A DNA stretch of 64,000 bases, taken from NCBI GenBank assembly GCA_003945285.1, contig AP019005.1, positions 1,054,001-1,118,000 of the forward strand, written 5' to 3'. How positions within the stretch are numbered: the stretch's first letter is position 1; every line of letters starts with the position of its first letter. The notes under the pieces were generated by a model. It ran no database searches, had not been told where the DNA came from, and was given only the letters and a program-made list of their open reading frames with translations. Both the position numbers and the translations under genes were made by a program. The DNA is from Hydrogenimonas sp. (GTDB lineage Bacteria > Campylobacterota > Campylobacteria > Campylobacterales > Hydrogenimonadaceae). This document shows, piece after piece, positions 6,708 through 56,475 of the stretch.

Positions 6708-6873
6708 CTGACCTGACGCAAAATCGGTCCACCGAACGGGATTTGCCCTATAATACGCGGCAAAATATCGAAAAACAGGTGACACCTTCGGCACCCTGAC
6801 GGACAAGCGACGCTTTTTGACGATACTTTTCCGCCCAAATCCCGCCCGCTGTCCAGGTTTTGCGTAAAGTCAG
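6708..6873. repeat. Family A1 palindromic MITE-like element, copy A1a
   Basis: About 166 bp bounded by CTGACCTGACGCAAAAT and, inverted, TTTTGCGTAAAGTCAG. The interior contains GGGATTTG...CAAATCCC and ATATCGAAAAAC...GTTTTT-type inverted arms, so most of the element could fold into one hairpin. It aligns along its whole length with 52304-52468. No direct repeat flanks it, so it looks older than that copy. It fills the space directly upstream of fapA and may carry the fapA promoter or terminator activity. Confidence 0.8.
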
Positions 6874-21685: not shown

Positions 21686-21834
21686 CGCTGCGTTCAGCGC
21701 GTGAAATCCCGCTCTGCGTGCGGATTTTGCGTAAGGTCATCCCGAAATCTATGATTTCGTAGCTTTAGGGGGGCGTAGGGGACGGTCACTCACCGCCAAA
21801 GCTTGGGCTTTGCTCAAGCTTTGCGTAACATCAG
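21686..21834. repeat. composite of a partial A1 and a full A2 repeat
   Basis: The left third (21686-21739) matches, inverted, the first 55 bases of the 52304 element (TGACCTTACGCAAAATCCGC). The right two thirds (about 21737-21834) match 41097-41196 as a direct repeat at roughly 85 percent by eye, ending GCTTTGCGTAACATCAG. The terminal TCA supplies the TGA stop of the AAA protease gene on the minus strand. Confidence 0.75.
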
Positions 21835-37153: not shown

Positions 37154-37250
37154 CTGATGCTACACAAAGCTTGAGCAAAGCCAGGCTTTGGCGGGGAGCG
37201 GCCTTCTTCAGCATCCCATAAAGCTTCGAAATCGTAGTTATCGAGATTGT
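37154..37250. repeat. Family A2 element next to or inside B3
   Basis: CTGATGCTACACAAAGCTTGAG...GGCTTTGGCGGGGAGCGGCC...AAGCTTCGAAATCG matches the reverse complement of the 41075-41196 copy. Its left end abuts the truncated B3 copy, as if it inserted there and replaced the B3 terminus. Confidence 0.65.
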
Positions 37251-41074: not shown

Positions 41075-41196
41075 CTGACGTTTTGCAAAAAGCGTAACGT
41101 CATTTCGAAATCTGTGATTTCGAAGCTTCAGGAGGGTGTGGGGACGGTGAGTTCCCGCCAAAGCTTGGGCTTCTCTCAAGCTTTGCGTAACATCAG
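41075..41196. repeat. Family A2 element between sqr and its small partner
   Basis: 122 bp beginning directly after the sqr stop with CTGACG and ending GCGTAACATCAG. The part from 41097 on is a direct repeat of 21737-21834. Inner arms such as CGAAATCTGTGATTTCG form an extra hairpin at 41106-41122. Confidence 0.8.
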
Positions 41197-46004: not shown

Positions 46005-47668
46005 ACCCGATCCTCGTAATAGTGGAGAAATATATCTTCGAAACTTTCTGCATCGGGATGTTTTTTATAGAGATTTTCCACTCTGTCGTCTGCCACTTTC
46101 CTACCCTCTTTCAGCAGAACAACCCGGTCGCAGTACTCCGCTTCGCTCATATAGTGTGTTGTGATCAGTATAGCTATACCCCACTTCTGCTTCAGAAGCC
46201 TGAGCATATGCCAAAACCGGCTCCTGGCTATGGCATCAACACCCGATGTAGGTTCATCCAGAAAGAGTACGACCGGTTCATGAAGCAGCGCGGCAGCGAC
46301 GGAGAAGCGCTGGTTTATTCCCAGAGGAAGCTCCGTAGGCAGAGAATCCATATATGATTCGAACCCGAGCTCTGCCGCATAACGCTCTATCCGCTCGGAT
46401 GCTTTCCCGGGATCGAGACGATGAATACTTGCAAAGTAGAGAAGATTCTCCCTGACGGTCATATCTTTGTACAGGGAGAAGTGCTGGCTTACGTAACCGA
46501 TCCTGCCCTTGAGATCGCGCCTCTCCTTGGCGCTTCTGATCGGTCTGCCCAGAAGTGTCAACTCACCCTCGTCTATCGGGTAGAGTCCGAGAAGCATCTT
46601 TATAAACGTGGTTTTGCCTGCCCCGTTCGCTCCGAGTAGGCCCAGAATCTCCCCGCTTTTGAGCTCCATATCTATATGGTCGTCCGCTGTGAAGTCGCCG
46701 AATCTTTTTGTAAGGCCTATTGCCTCCATGACAACAGGTGGTATCGGCTCCGTACTCTCCCTGGGGCTCACTTCGATCTCCGGTATTTCGACCCCCCTTT
46801 TCAGAGCGTTAATAAAAAACAGCGCCTCAAGCGTCGGCCTCTTTCGCGGTGCATCCAACGGATCGAGAGAGTATGTGTAGTAGCCTGCGGATACACACCT
46901 TTCGCTTCTGCACGGAACGGGAGAGTATGTATACTCTTCGACCGTTTCTATCAGTTCGTCGGCCGTACCCGACGCTATGATGCTGCCGGAGTCGAAAAGA
47001 TAGACACGGTCCATCTTCGCCGCCTCCTGCATATATGCGGTACTCATGAGCGTTATCGTCCCTTCACTCTCTCTTATCTCCTCCAGTATATCCCACAGTT
47101 CACGGCGGCTGAGAGGATCGACACCGGTGGTCGGTTCGTCCAATATGAGAAGCTTCGGCCGATGGACAAGTGTAGATATGAGCGAGAGCTTCTGCATCAT
47201 GCCGCCGCTCAGCTTTCCCGCCGCTCTTTCCGTAAAGCGTTCGAGCCCGGCCATCTTCAGGAGTCTCTCCCTGTACTCTTCGAAAGCTTCGTTCTCTTCG
47301 ACTCCCCTGATCTTGGCGAAGAAGCTCAGGTGTTCCGAAACCGTGAGGTTTTTGTAGAGTACCAGCCCTATGCCCTGCGGCATAAGACCGATAGAAGACT
47401 TGAGCTCCTCAGCCTCTCTCGGAGAGTGGAAACTTCTCCCCTGAAAAGTGATTACACCCTCGAAACGGACCACCCCGGCAACCGCATGCATGAGCGAGCT
47501 CTTTCCTGCGCCGTCCGCTCCGATCAGGCCGATGATCTCACCCTTTTTCGCAAAGAGTGATGCACTCTTTATGGCCGTTATATCTCCATGCCTTACTGTG
47601 ACATCTTTTACCTCCAGTTCAGCCTGAACCGGCTCTTCGGCCGCTACCTCTTTTTTATCTCTACTCAT
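46001..47668 (-). CDS. dual-domain ABC ATPase, YbhF-like
   Basis: The 555-aa protein starts MSRDKKEVAAEEPVQAE at 47668 and contains two nucleotide-binding domains. NBD1: Walker A GADGAGKSS, signature KLSGGM, Walker B LLILDEPTTGVD. NBD2: Walker A GANGAGKTT, an altered signature ELPLGINQRF and Walker B LFLDEPTSGVD. This tandem layout and the altered second signature are typical of YbhF and the RbbA/YhiH group, which work with two ABC-2 permeases and a HlyD-type adaptor. All these parts are adjacent here. Confidence 0.9.
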   Translation of the reverse strand: MSRDKKEVAAEEPVQAELEVKDVTVRHGDITAIKSASLFAKKGEIIGLIGADGAGKSSLMHAVAGVVRFEGVITFQGRSFHSPREAEELKSSIGLMPQGIGLVLYKNLTVSEHLSFFAKIRGVEENEAFEEYRERLLKMAGLERFTERAAGKLSGGMMQKLSLISTLVHRPKLLILDEPTTGVDPLSRRELWDILEEIRESEGTITLMSTAYMQEAAKMDRVYLFDSGSIIASGTADELIETVEEYTYSPVPCRSERCVSAGYYTYSLDPLDAPRKRPTLEALFFINALKRGVEIPEIEVSPRESTEPIPPVVMEAIGLTKRFGDFTADDHIDMELKSGEILGLLGANGAGKTTFIKMLLGLYPIDEGELTLLGRPIRSAKERRDLKGRIGYVSQHFSLYKDMTVRENLLYFASIHRLDPGKASERIERYAAELGFESYMDSLPTELPLGINQRFSVAAALLHEPVVLFLDEPTSGVDAIARSRFWHMLRLLKQKWGIAILITTHYMSEAEYCDRVVLLKEGRKVADDRVENLYKKHPDAESFEDIFLHYYEDRV

Positions 47669-48818
47669 TGCGGTATCTTCCGAACAGAAGATAGAGAAGG
47701 GCCATTGACGCAGTGCCGGCAAGTCCGAAAAGAAGCGCCGAATCGATTCCGAAATGTTCCCAGATCATGCCGGAAACGTATGCACCGGCCGCACCGAAGA
47801 GGGCGACGGCCGCATAGAAGATGCCGTATACCGAGCCCCTGTTGTCGGCCTTTTGTGCGATGAGTGCACGGTTGGCATTCAGAGAAGCGACCGTAAAGAG
47901 CCCCAGGAGTGCGTACGACAACCAGGTGAAAACGGGCTTTTGCAGATAGAGCAGCCCCTGTGCCGCAGCACCGCAGAGATAGGCGAAAGCGAGAATCTTT
48001 CCGGCCCCTATTCTGTCCACCCATACACCTAGCAGATAGCTTGTGAGAGTCTGAACCGAGGTAGAGACGACAAACAGAAGGGGGATCATGACGACGGCTA
48101 TACCGACACTTTTCGCCTGCATCGTGAAAAAGGCTTCGCTGAATATGAAAAAGAGGAAAAAGAAGTAGAAAAAGAGTGAGCGGACCGTAGACCAGTCCCG
48201 CTCCGTAAGAGTGAAGCGCTTTTTGGAGTCTGACCTCTTTTGGGATATATCCTTTACGAGAAAAGCGACAATAAAGAGTCCGACAAGGCCGGGAACCAGT
48301 GTCGCAAAGAAGATATTGCGAATCACATTTTCGCTCTCACCCAGAAAATAGAGAAGCCCCAGCAATATAAGTGTACCGCTAAGCTCCCCTGCGATATCTA
48401 GAGTTTTATGAAAACCGAATGTCCTGCCGGAACTTCTCTTTTTACTGTAGTGTGCGATCATCAGATCTTTGGGGGCCGATCTGAGCCCTTTGCCGAGCCT
48501 CTCCAGCGCCTTCAGGCCGGCGACGCTTTTGTAGCCGTGTGTAAAGCCTATGAGAGGCTTGCTCAAGGCGGATAGCGCATACCCGCCTACAACGAGCGGC
48601 TTCACAACCCCGTAGCGGTCACTTATGTAGCCCGATAAGAGGCGAAGCGCATAGGAGACGAAGGTTGCAACCGCCACTATGATACCCAGCTTGTCCATCC
48701 CTTCATGAAGTATGGTTACGACAAAAATCGGCAGTATCGGATTTATCATGGCGGAGGCCATGTCGGTGAAGAAACTCACCCACCCGAGCAGAACCACATT
48801 TCTGTCGATCTTTTTCAT
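47661..48818 (-). CDS. MFS transporter inside the ABC export operon
   Basis: The 385-aa protein has about 12 hydrophobic helices. The MFS signature between helices 2 and 3 is LLSGYISDRYGVVKP, and LERLGKGLRSAPKDLMIAHYS marks the subgroup often labelled MFS efflux transporters. It starts with ATGA overlap at the HlyD stop and ends inside the ATPase gene start, so it is embedded between the adaptor and the ATPase. The substrate is unknown. It is not part of the YbhGFSR system as known in E. coli. Confidence 0.88.
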   Translation of the reverse strand: MKKIDRNVVLLGWVSFFTDMASAMINPILPIFVVTILHEGMDKLGIIVAVATFVSYALRLLSGYISDRYGVVKPLVVGGYALSALSKPLIGFTHGYKSVAGLKALERLGKGLRSAPKDLMIAHYSKKRSSGRTFGFHKTLDIAGELSGTLILLGLLYFLGESENVIRNIFFATLVPGLVGLFIVAFLVKDISQKRSDSKKRFTLTERDWSTVRSLFFYFFFLFFIFSEAFFTMQAKSVGIAVVMIPLLFVVSTSVQTLTSYLLGVWVDRIGAGKILAFAYLCGAAAQGLLYLQKPVFTWLSYALLGLFTVASLNANRALIAQKADNRGSVYGIFYAAVALFGAAGAYVSGMIWEHFGIDSALLFGLAGTASMALLYLLFGRYRNE

Positions 48819-49972
48819 AGCTGCGGAAGGTCGTTCAGGGATTTGGGCAGAGTTCCGTTCCCAAGCGCCACCACCCCGGTCGCCGGAATACCGAGTTTCA
48901 AAAGAGGGTCGGCTTTCAGCGGCTTTATATGAAGTGCAAAAACGCGCTGTATACGGTCACTTCTTACATTCACCTCTTTCGGGGTAAATTCGGCTCTCTG
49001 GGCTATGCGGACAACTTTGGCCTCTATCGGCCTATCTGGATAGGAGTCGAGAAATATCACGGCTCGGTCTCCTATTTTTATCTTTCCGTTTTCGATGGTA
49101 TCCACGAATATTTTGAGATAGAGCGAGTCCGGATCTATCAGTGTCAAAACGGCCATTCCGCTTCCGACAACCTCTCCTTCGTTTGCGATCTTTTCCACGA
49201 CATAGCCGTCGACCGGAGAGGCGAGAGTCATCTCTTTCATCATCGCCTCCACCTCTTTTTTGGCGGCGGCAGCGGCTTTTACGCCCTCTTTCAGCGCAGC
49301 AATGCCTTTTTGCAGCGCCGCGATCCTCTTCTGCACGGCTTCAGCCTCTCTCATATCTGCTTTCGCAACACTGATGGCCGCTTCTACCTCTATCTCTTTG
49401 TGTATGAGCCCTTGCAGTCTCTGACTGTCGGTCTTCAACTTCAAAGCCGATTTTTCCAGAAGCTCCTTTTGGATCAGCCTCTTGGCATAGAGGTTTTCGG
49501 CTCTTGCGTAGTCGCGGTCGTCCTGCTCCACAACCTCCCGCATAGAGGAAATCTCCGCTTTCAACTGGGCCTTTCGGGACTCTGCGGCTCTGAGGCCGGC
49601 CGATGACTTTTCCAAGAGGAGCGGCAGTCTCTTTTTCGAGATCTCCAACTCTACCCTTTTGGAAGCCAGCTCATCCCTTTTGGCCGACTCTTCGGCAGCT
49701 ATCCGGGAGAGCCTGGCTCTCAGTTCGTCACTATCGAGCTGTGCCAGTTTTTCGCCTCTTTTTACCCTATCTCCCTCACCTACGAAAATTTTCACCACTC
49801 TGCCCGGATATTTGACATTCAGAGTCGTCAGGTCACCGTCTATATGTCCGACCCCCTGGATGAGATTAGGCGGCAACTTTTTCGGATGGAGCTTCTCGTA
49901 TATCATGAAGGCCGCCAGCACAACGAGAGCCGCACCGAAGAGTCCGAGCCAATATTTTTTGAAAAGCTGCAT
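48815..49972 (-). CDS. HlyD-family periplasmic adaptor, YbhG-like
   Basis: The 385-aa protein starts MQLFKKYWLGLFGAALVVL at 49972, a single membrane anchor. The lipoyl half-motifs (NVKYPGRVVKIFVGEGDRVKRG; ASPVDGYVVEKIANEGEVVGSG) flank a long coiled coil (about residues 95-230), and a beta-barrel domain follows. This is the membrane-fusion-protein layout that links inner-membrane transporters to TolC. The start overlaps the hydrolase stop. It should serve the downstream ABC or MFS transporter. Confidence 0.9.
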   Translation of the reverse strand: MQLFKKYWLGLFGAALVVLAAFMIYEKLHPKKLPPNLIQGVGHIDGDLTTLNVKYPGRVVKIFVGEGDRVKRGEKLAQLDSDELRARLSRIAAEESAKRDELASKRVELEISKKRLPLLLEKSSAGLRAAESRKAQLKAEISSMREVVEQDDRDYARAENLYAKRLIQKELLEKSALKLKTDSQRLQGLIHKEIEVEAAISVAKADMREAEAVQKRIAALQKGIAALKEGVKAAAAAKKEVEAMMKEMTLASPVDGYVVEKIANEGEVVGSGMAVLTLIDPDSLYLKIFVDTIENGKIKIGDRAVIFLDSYPDRPIEAKVVRIAQRAEFTPKEVNVRSDRIQRVFALHIKPLKADPLLKLGIPATGVVALGNGTLPKSLNDLPQL

Positions 49973-50634
49973 CACAGATCTCTTTCCAGGTGCTCCACAA
50001 ACCACTCTTTCGCTATAACGGAGACCTTCTCCAATGCCCCGGGCTCTTCGAAAAGGTGTGTTGCCCCGGGTATCAGAACGAGTCGTTTCTCACATCTCAG
50101 GCGCTCGTATGCTGCTTCGTTCAGCTCTATCACACCGGAATCGTTGCCTCCGACAATGAGCAGAGTCGGAGCTTTGACACGCTCTATGACATCGAGAGCC
50201 ATATCGGGCCTTCCGCCCCTGGAGACGATTGCGTAGACTTCATGTTCGGTAATTACAGATGCCTTCAGTGCAGCCGCGGAACCGGTACTTGCCCCGAAAT
50301 ACCCGAGCTTGAAACCTGACGTATCGTCTCTTGACGCTATCCAGTCGGTAGCCATTACGAGCCTGGATGCCAGCAGATCGATATCGAAGATATCTCTTCT
50401 GTCGTGCTCCTCGCTTTCCGTCAGAAGATCGAACAGTAAAGTAGCTATTCCCGCCTCATGAAGAACGGAAGCGACATAGTTGTTTCTGGAGCTGAAACGG
50501 CTGCTTCCGCTGCCGTGTGCAAAGAGCACTATCGATTCTGCCCCTTCAGGAACGGCCAGAAAACCTCCGACACTTACTTGAGCATTTTCTATTCTCACCT
50601 CTTGCTGAATCGAACGGAACTCTTCAACTCTCAT
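49972..50634 (-). CDS. alpha/beta hydrolase, dienelactone hydrolase-like
   Basis: The 220-aa protein starts MRVEEFRSIQQEVRIEN at 50634 behind AAGGAGAG. It has SIVLFAHGSGSSRFSSRN near the N-terminus, the nucleophile elbow GYFGASTGSAAAL near residue 110, LLIVGGNDSGV with the acid residue and GATHLFEEPGAL with the catalytic His. There is no signal peptide. It lies between the patatin and the HlyD adaptor in a coupled operon, so an esterase acting on a lipid or exported compound is plausible but unproven. Confidence 0.85.
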   Translation of the reverse strand: MRVEEFRSIQQEVRIENAQVSVGGFLAVPEGAESIVLFAHGSGSSRFSSRNNYVASVLHEAGIATLLFDLLTESEEHDRRDIFDIDLLASRLVMATDWIASRDDTSGFKLGYFGASTGSAAALKASVITEHEVYAIVSRGGRPDMALDVIERVKAPTLLIVGGNDSGVIELNEAAYERLRCEKRLVLIPGATHLFEEPGALEKVSVIAKEWFVEHLERDL

Positions 50635-51511
50635 GCTCTCTCCTTTGCAACGGTCCGCTATCAAGCTCTTCAATCACCTCCGAAGCGGCCATCCTGCCCG
50701 CCTCTATCACTTCAGCCGCCTTGTGGAAATCGAATGTGCTGCATACATTCATCGAGATATTTACCATAACATCGGGAGGATACCCTGCTATCCTGTATCT
50801 TGTCAGGGCATCCTGCATTGTATCGAATGTTTTGTCGAGCACATCGAACATAGTGAACTTCTTCTCCTCTTTGGCTTTGGCGAATAACTCTTTTACCGCA
50901 GTCTCGATGCTGTTCTTTCTCTCATCTTCCACTTTTTCGGTTTCAATTTTGGGTTTCGGTGTCTCCGCATAGAGATTTACCCCTACGATCATATCCGTCA
51001 GATCGGACTGTGTGGGGGCGACGGGAAGCGGGTTCAAAGCCCCACCGTCGACCAAAACCATATTACCCATCTTGACCGGAGTGAAAACGGACGGTATCGC
51101 TATTGAGGCGCGTATCGATTCAAGCAGGTTTCCTTTCTGGAACCAGACCTCCTTTTTTCTGACTATGTCGGTCGCGACCGCGGTAAATTTTATGGGAAGA
51201 TCTTCAATATCCACCTCCCCGATCATCTTCGAGAGCCTGTCGAATACCTTCTCCCCTTCTATAATGCCGCCACTGGAGAAGGATATATCCAGAAGGTAGG
51301 CTACATCGAGTGCATCCAGCCCAAGGACCCACTCTCTATACTCGTCCAGTTTTCCGCACGCATACAGCCCCCCTATCAAAGCGCCCATAGAGGCTCCGCT
51401 TATTGAGGCTATCTCGTATCCCCTCTTCTCAAGAATCTCGATGACCCCGATATGGGCATACCCCCGTGCACCGCCGCTGCCCAAAACCAGGGATATCCTC
51501 CTCTTAGCCAT
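50624..51511 (-). CDS. patatin-like phospholipase, RssA-type
   Basis: The 295-aa protein has the patatin features in order: LVLGSGGARGYAHIGVIEIL (oxyanion hole, residues 8-27), the nucleophile GASMG near residue 40 and the catalytic dyad Asp in LVDGGALNPLPV near 150. It is expected to hydrolyse lipids in the cytoplasm or at the membrane. The gene overlaps the TetR stop at its start and the hydrolase start region at its end. Members of this family often accompany lipid transport genes. Confidence 0.9.
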   Translation of the reverse strand: MAKRRISLVLGSGGARGYAHIGVIEILEKRGYEIASISGASMGALIGGLYACGKLDEYREWVLGLDALDVAYLLDISFSSGGIIEGEKVFDRLSKMIGEVDIEDLPIKFTAVATDIVRKKEVWFQKGNLLESIRASIAIPSVFTPVKMGNMVLVDGGALNPLPVAPTQSDLTDMIVGVNLYAETPKPKIETEKVEDERKNSIETAVKELFAKAKEEKKFTMFDVLDKTFDTMQDALTRYRIAGYPPDVMVNISMNVCSTFDFHKAAEVIEAGRMAASEVIEELDSGPLQRREHES

Positions 51512-52103
51512 CTCCTCTCCTCATACCCGAAAGAAATATATCGACAACCTCGGAAGCATCCTCGTCCAGCTCTCCTCCGCTGTTGAGCCAATACTCTATG
51601 AAGCCGGTCGTGTAGGCATTGAAGAGATAGGCAGTTTTCAGGTGATCCTTATTTTTGAGTGGCTCACTTGCATCCAGCCGTGCGAAGATCTCTGATAGAT
51701 AGAGGTAAATCGGAGCGGCAGGCTCGCTTTTGCGGGTATTCATCTTCAAAAAAAAGAGCGGATCTCCTACTACCGGATGTTCGATCGCCTCCTTTTTGGA
51801 AGCGAAAGCCGAAAACTTGAGCTCTACGAACTTCTCAAGCGCTTCCCGCGGATCGTCGATACCGGTAGATGCGGATATCAACTCTTCGTGGAATCTCTTT
51901 ATCTGGTACTCTATATATTCGAAAAAGAGTTCATCCTTTGATGGAAAGAGATTGTACAGGGCGCCGACAGACAGCCCTGTGTGTTCCGCAATATCCTGCA
52001 TTTTCACATTGTCAAAACCAACCTCTTCGAAATATTCGGAGACCTTCTGCAGTACGAGACTTTTCTTCGTTTCGATCACCTTCTCTCTTATCAACTCTTT
52101 CAC
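51504..52103 (-). CDS. TetR-family transcriptional regulator
   Basis: From GTG at 52103 (SD CAAGG, 7-base spacing) the protein is 199 aa, a standard TetR length; ATG at 52133 is an alternative. The helix-turn-helix is KMQDIAEHTGLSVGALYNLFPSKDELFFEYI near residues 30-60, followed by a ligand-binding all-helical domain. It is the first gene of the nine-gene export operon and is divergent from the EmrAB-TolC pump, so it probably controls both. The E. coli YbhGFSR operon also carries a TetR-type regulator (CecR). Confidence 0.9.
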   Translation of the reverse strand: MKELIREKVIETKKSLVLQKVSEYFEEVGFDNVKMQDIAEHTGLSVGALYNLFPSKDELFFEYIEYQIKRFHEELISASTGIDDPREALEKFVELKFSAFASKKEAIEHPVVGDPLFFLKMNTRKSEPAAPIYLYLSEIFARLDASEPLKNKDHLKTAYLFNAYTTGFIEYWLNSGGELDEDASEVVDIFLSGMRRGDG

Positions 52104-52296
52104 GCAGCAACCTTGAATAATGGAGTATCTCATTTTGTACCGTCCAGGCCGGAAACGAAGCTTCATGCAGCGCGGCATTGACTGTAACGGCTTCCGTAGA
52201 CGACACTTAATTCTATTTTATAAATGATCTTCTTAAATCAGAATAAATTAATTATTTTGTGAATATAATTCACTGATATCGGATAGGGTTCGTAAT

Positions 52297-52475
52297 TTAG
52301 GAACTGACCTTACGCAAAATCCGCACGCCGTGCGGGATTTGCCCTGCTGGACGCTGCAAAATATCTAAAAACCGCTAACGCCTTCGGCGCCCTTACGGGC
52401 AAGCGCGGTTTTTTGAACGATATTTTTCCGCTCAAATCCCGGGGCTGACAAATTTTGCGTAAGGTCAGTTAGGAA
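52297..52475. mobile_element. Family A1 MITE with 17-bp perfect ends and 7-bp target duplication
   Basis: The 165-bp element spans 52304-52468. Its ends are perfect inverted repeats: CTGACCTTACGCAAAAT at 52304-52320 and the complement at 52452-52468. It is flanked by the direct repeat TTAGGAA at 52297-52303 and 52469-52475, as left by a cut-and-paste transposase. The interior folds through AAAAACCGC / GCGGTTTTTT and GGGATTTG / CAAATCCC arms. It lies in the divergent region between tetR and the EmrA-like gene, where it may affect both promoters. Confidence 0.85.
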
Positions 52476-52506: not shown

Positions 52507-53622
52507 ATGGGCAGAAGAGTCGGAACGCTTATAATTCTAGTACTTGTTGTTCTGTTTGCCTACGGCGGATACAGGTATTTCTCTTTCCGCTCCGCAAATG
52601 CCGTCAGCGAAGCGGCTTTCATAAAGAGTGACAGGCTTGCCAACCTCACATTCAAAGTTGACGGCAAGGTGACTGAAATGTTGAAAAAAGAGAATGAGCC
52701 GGTGAAAGAGGGTGAGCTGCTCGCGGTGATCGACCCTACGGACCTGAAGGTCGCCAAGGAGGAGCTTCTTCATATCATAGAGAGCCTTGTAAAGTCGACG
52801 GATGCCATGGAGTTGAAAAAGAGACGGCTCAAGGAGTCACTGGCCCTTGAAACATCTATAGCCGGAAGTGACAACGAATCGGTAACGATGAAGCTCAAAT
52901 CTCTCGGCTTCAGGATAAAGGCCGCAGAGACGAAGCTGGAAAAGCTGGACAAAGATACGCTCAGATACGAAAAGATGCTCCGAAAGAGGCTCATAGCCTC
53001 ATCCGATTTCGAGTCGGTCCGTACCGAAAGAGACTCCCTTTCTGATGAGATAGAGGGGATGAGAAGAGAGTACGACGCTCTCAAGGCGGCGGAAAAGGCA
53101 TCGAGAGAGAGATACAGGCTTGCCATGGTACAGCAGCGGACGATAGAGGAGCTGCAAAAAGGCATAGAAGCCAAGAGAGAGGAGCTGAAGTCGCGCAGGG
53201 AGGCACTATCCGACATAGAGAACAAGATAGGCTACACCAGGCTATATGCTCCGTTTGACGGTGTTATAGCGAAGAGATATTTCGAAGCGCCGCTTGTAGT
53301 TGAAAAAGGGACACCCGTCTATGCTCTGATAGACCCTTCGGCTCTATACTGCGAAGTGCTTCTCTCCGAGAAGAAGATGAGGGGGGTAAAGCCGGGCAAC
53401 CCGGTTACTATTACAGTAGACGCGTTGGAGGGGAGAGAGATAAGCGGTAAAGTAGAGTCTATTGCACCGGTATCCGCCTCAACCTTCTCTCTGGTACCGA
53501 GAGATATAGCCAGCGGAGAGTTCACCAAGCTCGACCAGCGTTTCAAGATACGCATCTCGATAGAGGAGACCGAAGGCCTCAGGTCGGGCATGAGCGCTTC
53601 CGTAGCGATCGAAAGGAGATAG
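52507..53622 (+). CDS. emrA: HlyD/EmrA-family adaptor
   Basis: The 371-aa protein has an N-terminal anchor (VGTLIILVLVVLFAYGGYRYF), lipoyl half-motifs (LTFKVDGKVTEMLKKENEPVKEG; LYAPFDGVIAKRYFEAPLVVEKG) and a long coiled coil in between (about 90-230). It should link the EmrB-like transporter to the TolC-like channel across the periplasm. The emrB start follows by one base. The ribosome-binding site AAAGGAG lies before ATG 52507. Confidence 0.9.
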   Translation: MGRRVGTLIILVLVVLFAYGGYRYFSFRSANAVSEAAFIKSDRLANLTFKVDGKVTEMLKKENEPVKEGELLAVIDPTDLKVAKEELLHIIESLVKSTDAMELKKRRLKESLALETSIAGSDNESVTMKLKSLGFRIKAAETKLEKLDKDTLRYEKMLRKRLIASSDFESVRTERDSLSDEIEGMRREYDALKAAEKASRERYRLAMVQQRTIEELQKGIEAKREELKSRREALSDIENKIGYTRLYAPFDGVIAKRYFEAPLVVEKGTPVYALIDPSALYCEVLLSEKKMRGVKPGNPVTITVDALEGREISGKVESIAPVSASTFSLVPRDIASGEFTKLDQRFKIRISIEETEGLRSGMSASVAIERR

Positions 53623-53623
53623 G

Positions 53624-55186
53624 TTGGCACTTCCGGCTGAAGATGTCGAGCTTGAAAACAGAAAGAAACCGTGGGATATAACACCCAAAGAGCGGGCGAT
53701 TTTCAGCATCATCGTCATGACCGGGGCTTTCATGGCGATTCTGGACACCACCGTCGTCGATGTCATAGTACCGAAACTCACCGGGCCGCTGGCAACCGAT
53801 ATGTACGGTGTCCAGTGGATAATTACAAGCTATATGATCTCCGCCGCAATAGCGCTTTTGATAACCGAATACCTGATAAAAAGATACGGTGCGAAGAGTG
53901 TCTTTTTATCCGGAGTTCTACTCTTCTCTGTAGCCTCTCTCTTTTGCGGTCTTGCGGACACTCTCGAGCATATGATCGTATTCAGGGTTTTACAGGGTGT
54001 CGGAGAAGCCTTTATCATGGTGACGAGTCACATAATGATCTTCAGCTATTTCCCGCCTCACAGACAGGGGCTGGCGATGGGACTTTTCGGGCTCGGTGTA
54101 AGTTTCGCTCCGGCACTTGGACCGACTATCGGCGGTTATCTTACGGAGTACTACAGTTGGAGAATGGTCTTCTACATAAATGTGCCGGTAGGTGTACTCC
54201 TGATAGTCTCCGGCCTTGTATTTCTCCCCAAAGAGAGTATATTCCAAAGACTCAAATTCAATTTCGTGAGCTTCCTGCTTATCTCTTTCGCCACCGTTTC
54301 TCTTCTTATTATGTTGAGCAAGGGGCAGCAGCTGGGCTGGTTCAACGACTCCTTCATAGGCCTTCTTCTCGTATGCTCGGTAATAGGATTCCTGCTGTAC
54401 GGATTGAGTGAGATGTGGTCCAGGCACCGCCTCATAGACTTCTCTCTCTTCAAAAACCCGGTATTCGCCAACGGAATGATGATCTACTTCTTCATTCTCG
54501 GTTTCTCTATGTACCAGTATTTCTATCTTCTTCCGGTTTATTACGAGCATATCAAGATGCTCCCCACTCTGGATGCGGGAATAGCCGTTTTCGCCTTTGC
54601 CGTCTTCATAGGTATATTCTCACCGCTGGCGGGGATACTTTCCGATAAAATCGGCGCGAAGAGGACCGTTCTGATAGCTTCGTTTTTCTACGTGGCTACA
54701 TCGCTGGCGTTTCTGCCTACATTAAACTACTACACTCCTCTTGGCCGGGCGATGCTGCTGACAATACCTTTCGGAATTGGAATGGGACTCTTTTTCGCAC
54801 CCGTTACCGTTATGGTTCTGCAAAACGCGCCGCAGCAGAAGGGAGAGCTCGCTATAGTCCTTATGGACTATTTCCGCTTTGTAGGAGGGAGTTTCGGCAC
54901 GGCACTGGCTACGAACAATATGGAGTATTTCAAAAATATGCACTTCCTCCGTATGGAGGAGCTGCAAAACAGCGAATATCTCTCTTACTACCTGAACCGG
55001 CTGGCCGACACCCTATCCATATCGGTAGAAAAGGCGAAGGCAATATTCGCAAACTATGAGGCTTTCATGGGATACAACTACGGTTTTTACAACACTTTCA
55101 TGCATGCGGGATACTGGGGAGTCCTGGGTTCCCTTTTCGTACTGCTGCTTTTCGTGAGATTGAGGCCGAATAAGGAGGCAAAATGA
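53624..55186 (+). CDS. emrB: EmrB-like drug efflux transporter, DHA2 family
   Basis: The 520-aa protein has about 14 hydrophobic helices and the DHA2 hallmark MAILDTTVVDVIVPKL with VQWIITSYMISAA near the N-terminus, as well as GPTIGGYLTEYYSWRMVFYINVPVG near residue 170. It exports hydrophobic drugs using proton antiport. The start is TTG at 53624 behind an excellent AAGGAG, one base after the emrA stop; translation is likely to be efficient despite the rare start. tolC overlaps by 4 bp. Confidence 0.93.
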   Translation: MALPAEDVELENRKKPWDITPKERAIFSIIVMTGAFMAILDTTVVDVIVPKLTGPLATDMYGVQWIITSYMISAAIALLITEYLIKRYGAKSVFLSGVLLFSVASLFCGLADTLEHMIVFRVLQGVGEAFIMVTSHIMIFSYFPPHRQGLAMGLFGLGVSFAPALGPTIGGYLTEYYSWRMVFYINVPVGVLLIVSGLVFLPKESIFQRLKFNFVSFLLISFATVSLLIMLSKGQQLGWFNDSFIGLLLVCSVIGFLLYGLSEMWSRHRLIDFSLFKNPVFANGMMIYFFILGFSMYQYFYLLPVYYEHIKMLPTLDAGIAVFAFAVFIGIFSPLAGILSDKIGAKRTVLIASFFYVATSLAFLPTLNYYTPLGRAMLLTIPFGIGMGLFFAPVTVMVLQNAPQQKGELAIVLMDYFRFVGGSFGTALATNNMEYFKNMHFLRMEELQNSEYLSYYLNRLADTLSISVEKAKAIFANYEAFMGYNYGFYNTFMHAGYWGVLGSLFVLLLFVRLRPNKEAK

Positions 55187-56475
55187 GATGGTTGCTTTTA
55201 TTGGCGCTAAAAGGTGCCCTGCTTGCACAGACATACAGTTCGATAATAGAAGAGGTCGACAACTCGCCTCTCCTTCAGAGTGCAAAGGAGTTGAAGATGG
55301 CGGCATCTTCGGCTGCGGAAGCCGCAAGAGGAAAGAGTATGCCGAGCCTCGATGTCTCGTTCGGTGCAGCGTGGCTGAAAGAGAGACCGACCGTTACATT
55401 CAGAATACCCGGCTATCCGCCCATGGATGCCCCGATGGGAACCAAACGAAACTTCAACGGTTCCGTCAGGCTTGCCTACCCTCTCTTTACCGGCTTCGCA
55501 ATCAGCGCCGAAATAGAGAAGATGGGATATGAGAGTGAAACGGCCCGGCTGAAACTGCTCGATCTAAAAAGAAACCTCTACCTTCAGGCTACGGAGCTTG
55601 CCGCCGCATGTTTTGCGGCGGATAAGACCCTGGAGGCTCAAATTGAGGCAAAAAAAGCCATGGAGGATGCCTACAGGAAAGCGAAAGGACTCTACGACAA
55701 CGGACTTCTACCGCCTGCGGACCTTTACAACATAGAGGCTAAACAATACGAAGTGGAGGCGGAAATAGAGGAGACCAAAACAAAAAGAGCACAGATTCTA
55801 AACCGCCTGGGCTATCTTATCAACGCAAAGGTCGAGTCGGTCGACCTTCCGCTTTATCTCTTTTCGCTCAATATGGAGAAAGAGGCGCTGATTGAAGAGG
55901 CGCTTGAGTCACGGGAAGATATTAAAGTTCTCAAAACCGTTTTGAAGAGCGGCGACACCGTAATCAAGCTGGCCGAAAGCCGACTCTATCCCAGTGTAAC
56001 TCTGGCAGCCGAACTGAAAAGAAGAGGTGACACCCCGAAGCTGAACGGTGACGGTTTTACAAATCCCGATCAGAGCTATATCGGTGCATCCCTATCCTGG
56101 AATCTTTTCAACGGATTCTCCGATAAAAAAATGATAGAGTCGGCCCGCTACAGGCGTCTCGCTTCTGCGGCGATGCTTAACGACTACAAAATGAGGGTGA
56201 AAACCGAACTTGAAAATGCCTTTCTTGACCTTTCGGCCCTCTATTCGAGGCTAAAAAGCGCAAAGATGGAGCTCAAAGCCAGAGGTGCATACTGCGAACT
56301 CACAAAGGGGCGTTTCGAGAATCAGCTGGCAGATGCGGATGAACTGAGTCGCTCAATAGCCGAACTTTTCGCTTCCAAAGCAAAAGTAGCCGTTCTGCAA
56401 AGCCGTATATTCAAACAGAAAGCCTCGATATTGCTGATGGCCGGAATAGACCCTTTCAAAAGAGTTGTCGAGTAG
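55183..56475 (+). CDS. tolC: TolC-family outer membrane channel protein
   Basis: The 430-aa protein begins with a short signal peptide (MRWLLLLALKGALLAQ) and shows the two-fold repeat of long helices and strands of TolC proteins: SSAAEAARGKSMPSLDVSFGAA and, in the second half, LAESRLYPSVTLAAEL. SYIGASLSWNLFNGFSDKKM is the typical strand region before the second helical pair. It completes the tripartite pump with EmrA and EmrB, and could also serve the facing HlyD-ABC system, which has no channel gene of its own. Confidence 0.9.
   Translation: MRWLLLLALKGALLAQTYSSIIEEVDNSPLLQSAKELKMAASSAAEAARGKSMPSLDVSFGAAWLKERPTVTFRIPGYPPMDAPMGTKRNFNGSVRLAYPLFTGFAISAEIEKMGYESETARLKLLDLKRNLYLQATELAAACFAADKTLEAQIEAKKAMEDAYRKAKGLYDNGLLPPADLYNIEAKQYEVEAEIEETKTKRAQILNRLGYLINAKVESVDLPLYLFSLNMEKEALIEEALESREDIKVLKTVLKSGDTVIKLAESRLYPSVTLAAELKRRGDTPKLNGDGFTNPDQSYIGASLSWNLFNGFSDKKMIESARYRRLASAAMLNDYKMRVKTELENAFLDLSALYSRLKSAKMELKARGAYCELTKGRFENQLADADELSRSIAELFASKAKVAVLQSRIFKQKASILLMAGIDPFKRVVE

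Follow-up and report, generated by a model that had tools for sequence, protein, structure and literature searches.

The window that we analysed is the whole stretch of 64,000 nucleotides (positions 1054001-1118000 of a genome that consists of one contig of 2,193,435 bases); the remainder of the genome was covered by searches and by selected stretches. A TetR-family regulator gene lies divergent from a pump operon with EmrA-like, EmrB-like and TolC-like genes, and the intergenic space between them contains a short element (Table 1). The initial annotation had called this a gene-free MITE of 165 bp with perfect 17-bp inverted ends and TTAGGAA on both flanks. We found this description exact to the base, and the results below support the MITE interpretation. 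The interior had been described as palindromic and able to fold into one long hairpin. A single long hairpin is indeed predicted for the whole strand (-71 kcal/mol, z = -6.6; none of 200 dinucleotide shuffles was as good), but the palindrome is not a clean one: it is imperfect and asymmetric and bears side hairpins.

The element had also been placed in a regulatory region shared by the TetR gene and the pump. It does lie in that intergenic space, but 3' of the intact promoter block: it is part of the pump operon's 5' leader, with 38 bp between it and the start codon (ATG) at 52507. The promoter block contains a palindrome, GTGAATATAATTCAC, that overlaps a TATAAT box and is a likely TetR operator. 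Transcripts of the pump genes from the conserved promoter would need to run through the entire hairpin, which would probably make expression lower or conditional. The predicted hairpin probably lowers or conditions read-through of the EmrAB/TolC-like operon.

We compared this locus to that in other genomes of the genus. Of 18 same-genus genomes (counting the source genome), 17 have an orthologue of the EmrA-like gene. Nine (G001, G002, G004, G005, G007, G009, G013, G015 and G017) have the divergent TetR and EmrA-like pair and are missing the MITE. The nine empty intergenic spaces contain the conserved block ending in GTGAATATAATTCAC or a variant of it, followed by a short leader; these leaders are too diverged for alignment at the level of single bases. 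Relatives within the genus thus do have an empty site, with the promoter intact.

There are two HlyD/EmrA-like adaptor genes in this neighbourhood, at 48815-50005 (minus strand) and 52507-53622 (plus strand), in opposite directions and 2.5 kb apart. A second MFS gene is at 47661-48818. This arrangement may stem from an ancient duplication of the pump cluster.

Table 1. Features of the locus and related sites (window coordinates, except for the last two rows, which are genome coordinates)
Feature	Position	Strand	Remarks
TetR-family regulator gene	51504..52178	-	longest ORF; alignment with relatives suggests a later start
Promoter/operator block ...TTCTTAAATCAGAATAAATTAATTATTTTGTGAATATAATTCAC	52213..52273	.	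conserved in same-genus genomes; upstream of the insertion
Target duplication TTAGGAA, left copy	52297..52303	.	exact
MITE (family A)	52304..52468	+	165 bp, without a gene; no ORF of at least 80 aa
Left terminal inverted repeat CTGACCTTACGCAAAAT	52304..52320	+	17 bp; CTGA..TTACGCA is the IS701/ISAba11-group end
Conserved structured core	52331..52445	+	115-position covariance model R1, 124.7 bits
Outer core stem GATTTG (pairs with CAAATC)	52336..52341	+	5' arm
Side hairpin, CCCTNCGGG in most copies	52342-52350	+	5' arm only, not mirrored on the 3' arm
Variable middle stem, 5' arm AAAATATC	52358..52365	+	pairs with 52419-52426; all pairs show compensatory changes
Inner stem, 5' arm AAAACCGC	52368..52375	+	A-tract nearly invariant; CCGC covaries (TTGC, GTGC)
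Two adjoining tip hairpins, GCCTTCGGC and CCCTTACGGG	52380..52399	+	
Inner stem, 3' arm GCGGTTTT	52405..52412	+	followed by TTGAAC bulge; terminator-like on both strands
Right terminal inverted repeat	52452..52468	-	same as left repeat, 17/17 bp
Target duplication TTAGGAA, right copy	52469..52475	.	exact
EmrA-like periplasmic adaptor gene, first of pump operon	52507..53622	+	
EmrB-like gene of pump operon	53624-55186		
TolC-like gene of pump operon	55183-56475		
Second family A copy, decayed	6708..6873	+	core 57.7 bits; target duplication gone
Family B site	21813-21834	-	
Family B site	37154-37175	+	
Family B site	41175-41196	-	
Family A copy with nested third MITE (L078)	341596-342030		
Family A copy with nested third MITE (L080)	1577438-1577871		

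Dispersed copies and the source of the ends

The ends of the element are highly repeated. The 17-mer end was found six times in the window with up to three mismatches (0.15 expected). Allowing up to two mismatches, the 2.19-Mb genome has 114 occurrences, compared to none for the reversed control. Using BLASTN against this genome, we found about 40 copies or fragments of the element (family A), nearly all with 78-97% identity. Exact 7-bp direct repeats flank 14 of the 39 family A copies that have both ends, and in 21 of the 39 the flanks match at six or more of seven positions. When the right flanks were permuted 10,000 times, there were on average 0.47 exact repeats and at most 5. Three more family A copies are flanked by exact 8-bp repeats (TTAGGATA, TGAGTTTA and TGACATCA), and the target motif of the family is approximately T-T/G-A-N-T-A-A (T.A..AA). 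Many copies therefore bear flanking duplications of 7-8 bp, so that this check proposed in the initial annotation came out in favour of a MITE.

We surveyed the context of 30 copies, counting ORFs of at least 90 amino acids as genes. All but one (29/30) were intergenic or overlapped just short or doubtful ORFs, and copy L020 was within one doubtful ORF. The neighbouring genes were tandem for 16 copies, divergent for nine and convergent for five, and family A copies were found in either orientation relative to their neighbours. Decay was seen in many MITE copies, and the exact two-ended pattern of the MITE had no matches in 85,000 named genomes. In sum, the element is a MITE: it is short and gene-free and has inverted repeats, target duplications, dispersed copies and an empty site.

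The initial annotation had also proposed a search for a full-length, transposase-coding element with the same ends. We found such elements, but in other genera and not here. In this genome, the 13 places with unpaired ends, which were candidates for a full-length IS, are decayed or partial copies, and none was found beside a transposase. An order-wide search for ACTGACNTTACGCAAA led to G028, where an open frame of 288 amino acids begins ~75 bp within the end and is truncated by the edge of the contig. The frame is an IS701-family transposase (NF049921; 260 bits compared to a cut-off of 250), with relatives beside end CTGACCTTACGCAAA in G035 and beside end CTGACCTTACGCAC in G469. In all, transposases above the NF049921 cut-off lie 50-75 bp within ACTGACYTTACGCAAA ends in two genera other than that of the window. 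G469, from a third genus, has a complete IS of 1102 bp with CTGACCTTACGCAC ends and a 350-amino acid transposase (330 bits).

Relatives on plasmids have ends of the form CTGA(CC/TG/AG)TTACGCA, and one of them is annotated as ISAba11 group. Exact 7-bp duplications flank the plasmid ISs of Acinetobacter schindleri (TTATTTA), Polaromonas CJ2 (TATTTAA) and Polaromonas H6N (TTACTAA). The sequence CTGACCTTACGCA is exactly common to the MITE, the ISs of G469 and G035 and the Polaromonas H6N IS. Based on the same end sequence, duplication length and target motif, the MITE agrees with ISs of the ISAba11 group. These ISs (NF049921, transpos_IS701_2) resemble the MITE in their CTGA(CC/TG)TTACGCA ends and 7-bp TTANNAA-like duplications. 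In contrast, they are ~1.1 kb long with a transposase, whereas the MITE is 165 bp, has only the terminal 13-15 bp in common with them and has an interior that is not from an IS.

We suggest that the MITE was moved in trans by a DDE transposase of the IS701 family, ISAba11 group, and that this transposase would since have been lost from the genome. No IS701-type transposase was detected at E<=1e-5 in this genome or in 17 relatives of the same genus, hence the proposed loss. An IS4-type DDE_Tnp_1 transposase (PF01609) was also considered as a source and none was detected in the genome. Because neither an IS701 nor a DDE_Tnp_1 transposase was detected in this genome, present-day mobility of the MITE is only putative. 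A search of the openly accessible literature found nothing on MITEs from IS701, or on MITEs in Campylobacterota or Sulfurimonas.

A structured core between different ends

The interior of the MITE is a structured core that is common to MITEs with different ends, which the initial annotation had missed. We compared the window element to 150 relatives by BLASTN. It matched sequences in G013 (1e-23) and G007 (8e-19) over positions ~17-146, that is, excluding the ends, and there were weaker partial matches in other genera. The outer ends at the matching places differ from those of the window element.

We aligned 23 sequences that came from nine genomes and built a covariance model from this alignment, in which 22 of 30 pairs had changed on both sides. 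The model matched 18 of 397 genomes of the class (8 genera in 4 families), almost always over its full length, and found 71 cores in this genome. In the larger set of 83 distinct sequences, compensatory changes occurred at 27 of 30 pairs, and the covariation score was 0.534 compared to 0.156 for shuffled and at most 0.142 for slid alignments; this alignment was fitted to the model and is biased towards it. Unpaired columns of the core are also more than 90% conserved. The bulge on the 3' side has the consensus TTNAAC, with TA opposite.

The distribution of the core appears limited to Campylobacterota. A scan of 85,000 named genomes for the exact core gave 16 places in metagenome-assembled genomes of Campylobacterota, and the named relatives that bear the core are Campylobacterales/Campylobacterota genomes. 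Six matches beyond Campylobacterota (in Elusimicrobia, Ornatilinea, Spirochaetia, Pedosphaera, Akkermansia and Leeuwenhoekiella) were rejected: they have neither the 3' stem nor the arms, and are chance-like. Rfam had no match at the locus and none above the gathering score in eight relatives. Two different species (G034 and G065) have the same core insertion in the same flanks (L161 and L172), indicating that some copies are old and vertically inherited.

The core was found between at least four types of ends: the IS701 type, TACCAATCC, ACTGACTAAAT and CGGTAATTCAAAA. IS701-like ends surround the core in G053, where the duplication is TTAATAA, and in G083. In G007, the core is between TACCAATCC ends, and the 3-bp flanks agree in 6 of 6 complete copies (TAA/TAA or TTA/TTA); this TWA duplication differs from the 7-bp type. 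The f15/f18 genomes have the core with ACTGACTAAAT-like ends. About eleven of the 71 cores in this genome have CGGTAATTCAAAA ends (family C), and these are closer to the cores of G007 (mean identity 0.75) than to the family A cores that this genome also has (0.64). No clear target duplication was found at the ACTGACTAAAT or CGGTAATTCAAAA types of ends.

Families A and C are homologous almost to the A ends, with GCAAAAYCYGYACGC in common beside the terminal ~10 bp. One copy (L093, genome position 674985) is a chimera of the two. From left to right, it begins with the outer end of family C, continues with the left end and left arm of family A (CTGACCTTACGCAAAATCCGCACGCCGAGCGGGATTT), and returns to family C for the core, right arm and right end. 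Given several types of ends and one chimera, the core appears to have been inherited while the ends were exchanged. The likely course of such an exchange is that one MITE inserts into or beside the ends of another and that the ends are then swapped within the core that both have, by recombination or by template switching, a route that we infer from the chimera and from nesting, as family A copies also occur in or beside B and C elements. Altogether, the explanation that we consider very probable is a MITE mobilized by ISAba11-group elements, with an old core that is not tied to particular ends and has had its ends exchanged.

Family B is a MITE of ~150 bp with IS701-like ends (CTGATGTTACGCAAAGC / CTGACGTTACGCAAAAA) and without the core. 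At L089 (genome positions 1338253-1338600), three pieces stand side by side (one A copy, one B copy and a further A end), and the A duplication, TTACTGA, overlaps the B end. A third MITE, with ends GGGCACCTCTAAAGGCCCC, is inserted in A copies at one internal site (Table 1). Remnants of 11-25 bp are present at this site in other A copies (L017, L021, L023, L025, L028 and L030), which would fit the imprecise loss of a nested copy. Two copies of 434 bp (341596 and 1577438) were candidates for longer autonomous ancestors, but they are A copies that contain the nested GGGCACCTCTAAA-ended MITE and have no notable open frame.

Possible roles of the core

The core has a terminator-like layout, with a G+C stem flanked by A- and T-tracts on both strands (AAAAACCGC...GCGGTTTTTT), and the tracts are near-invariant. 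A simple terminator scan flagged only sub-stems, on the minus strand. The core would most likely act as a bidirectional terminator-like hairpin that makes intergenic insertions tolerable. It is also possible that hosts have domesticated the copies as terminators. This is not favoured, because there is no excess of copies between convergent genes (5/30). An integron attC-like site, suggested by the long imperfect hairpin, was rejected because the site motif, judged by eye, does not match.

The pairing itself indicates the form in which the structure is maintained. In a structure that acts as a single RNA strand, G-U pairs are expected to be much more common than A-C mismatches. Among 2264 paired cells of the core, 40 (1.8%) were G-U, fewer than the 63 that were A-C. 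Because G-U is rarer than A-C, pairing seems to be maintained at the level of DNA or for both strands. We tentatively propose, as a possibility that falls short of even odds, that the core is an independent module, selected as a structure of DNA or of RNA from both strands. It would have persisted over order-level time in Campylobacterota by repeatedly acquiring the ends of whichever IS family is active, and the lineage of the MITE would be defined by this core instead of by its ends or its transposase.

A rather doubtful alternative is that the pairing has no function and that the core is ancestral filler of MITEs, its arms homogenized by template switching. Template switching between arms, a process described in PMC8794818, could yield compensatory changes without function. 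Covariation nearly free of G-U intermediates is what copying from arm to arm gives, and the decay of many MITE copies also fits. But copying between arms would erase one-sided features, and such features are kept at the level of the order: the side hairpin that only the 5' arm has, the TA opposite TTNAAC, and the highly conserved unpaired columns.

It is improbable that the core is a functional RNA (a regulatory RNA, attenuator or ribozyme) selected for its RNA fold. Strong covariation, conserved loops and an asymmetric side hairpin across genera, together with a very stable fold, are what such an RNA would have. Against it, the scarcity of G-U pairs indicates no bias to the RNA strand, Rfam has no match, and the copies are in either orientation relative to their neighbours. 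We think it equally improbable that the core used to be a mobile element in its own right, with repeated insertions into different MITEs, instead of staying in place while the ends were exchanged. Nesting is common (the GGGCACCTCTAAA-ended MITE in A copies, and A in or beside B and C), but homology between A and C reaches almost to the A ends through GCAAAAYCYGYACGC, and we saw no target duplication flanking the core. Finally, a fixed REP/BIME repeat or chance palindrome that is not a transposon would also be intergenic, palindromic and present in many copies, but we give this almost no credence since the target duplications far exceed those from permutation, relatives have empty sites, and the ends are identical to those of an IS family.

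Relation to known repeats

The MITE described here resembles several known repeats. QMITE2 from Coxiella, Chunjie from Geobacter and MITEAba12 are likewise shorter than 500 bp, gene-free and intergenic, with inverted and direct repeats (7-9 bp for QMITE2) and a stable stem-loop (PMC10969869, PMC6382973). In contrast to these, the elements described here have one structured core between several unrelated types of ends, within and across genera. The Correia elements of Neisseria and the SPRITE and BOX elements of pneumococcus are also small and terminator-like or regulatory, and are found in leaders and in one another (PMC10969869). Their regulatory effects have been studied, whereas those of this MITE are only predicted, and the likeness given here is one of description. 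REP/BIME repeats are similar in their intergenic, palindromic and high-copy character. To our knowledge, REPs do not have long terminal repeats or 7-bp duplications. They are 20-40 bp in length (PMC3733652).

As a MITE, the element is ordinary; what is new is a core with exchangeable ends. MITEs are usually seen as deleted ISs, are classed by their ends, and are thought of as bound to a single transposase. In this case, the same interior can be traced through at least four types of ends, two of which are in one chromosome together with a chimera of those two. The covariance model now describes a repeat family that has no Rfam entry. In addition, the presence or absence of a 165-nt hairpin in the leader of the pump operon makes a natural experiment. 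The exchange of ends and the purpose of the interior thereby become directly testable.
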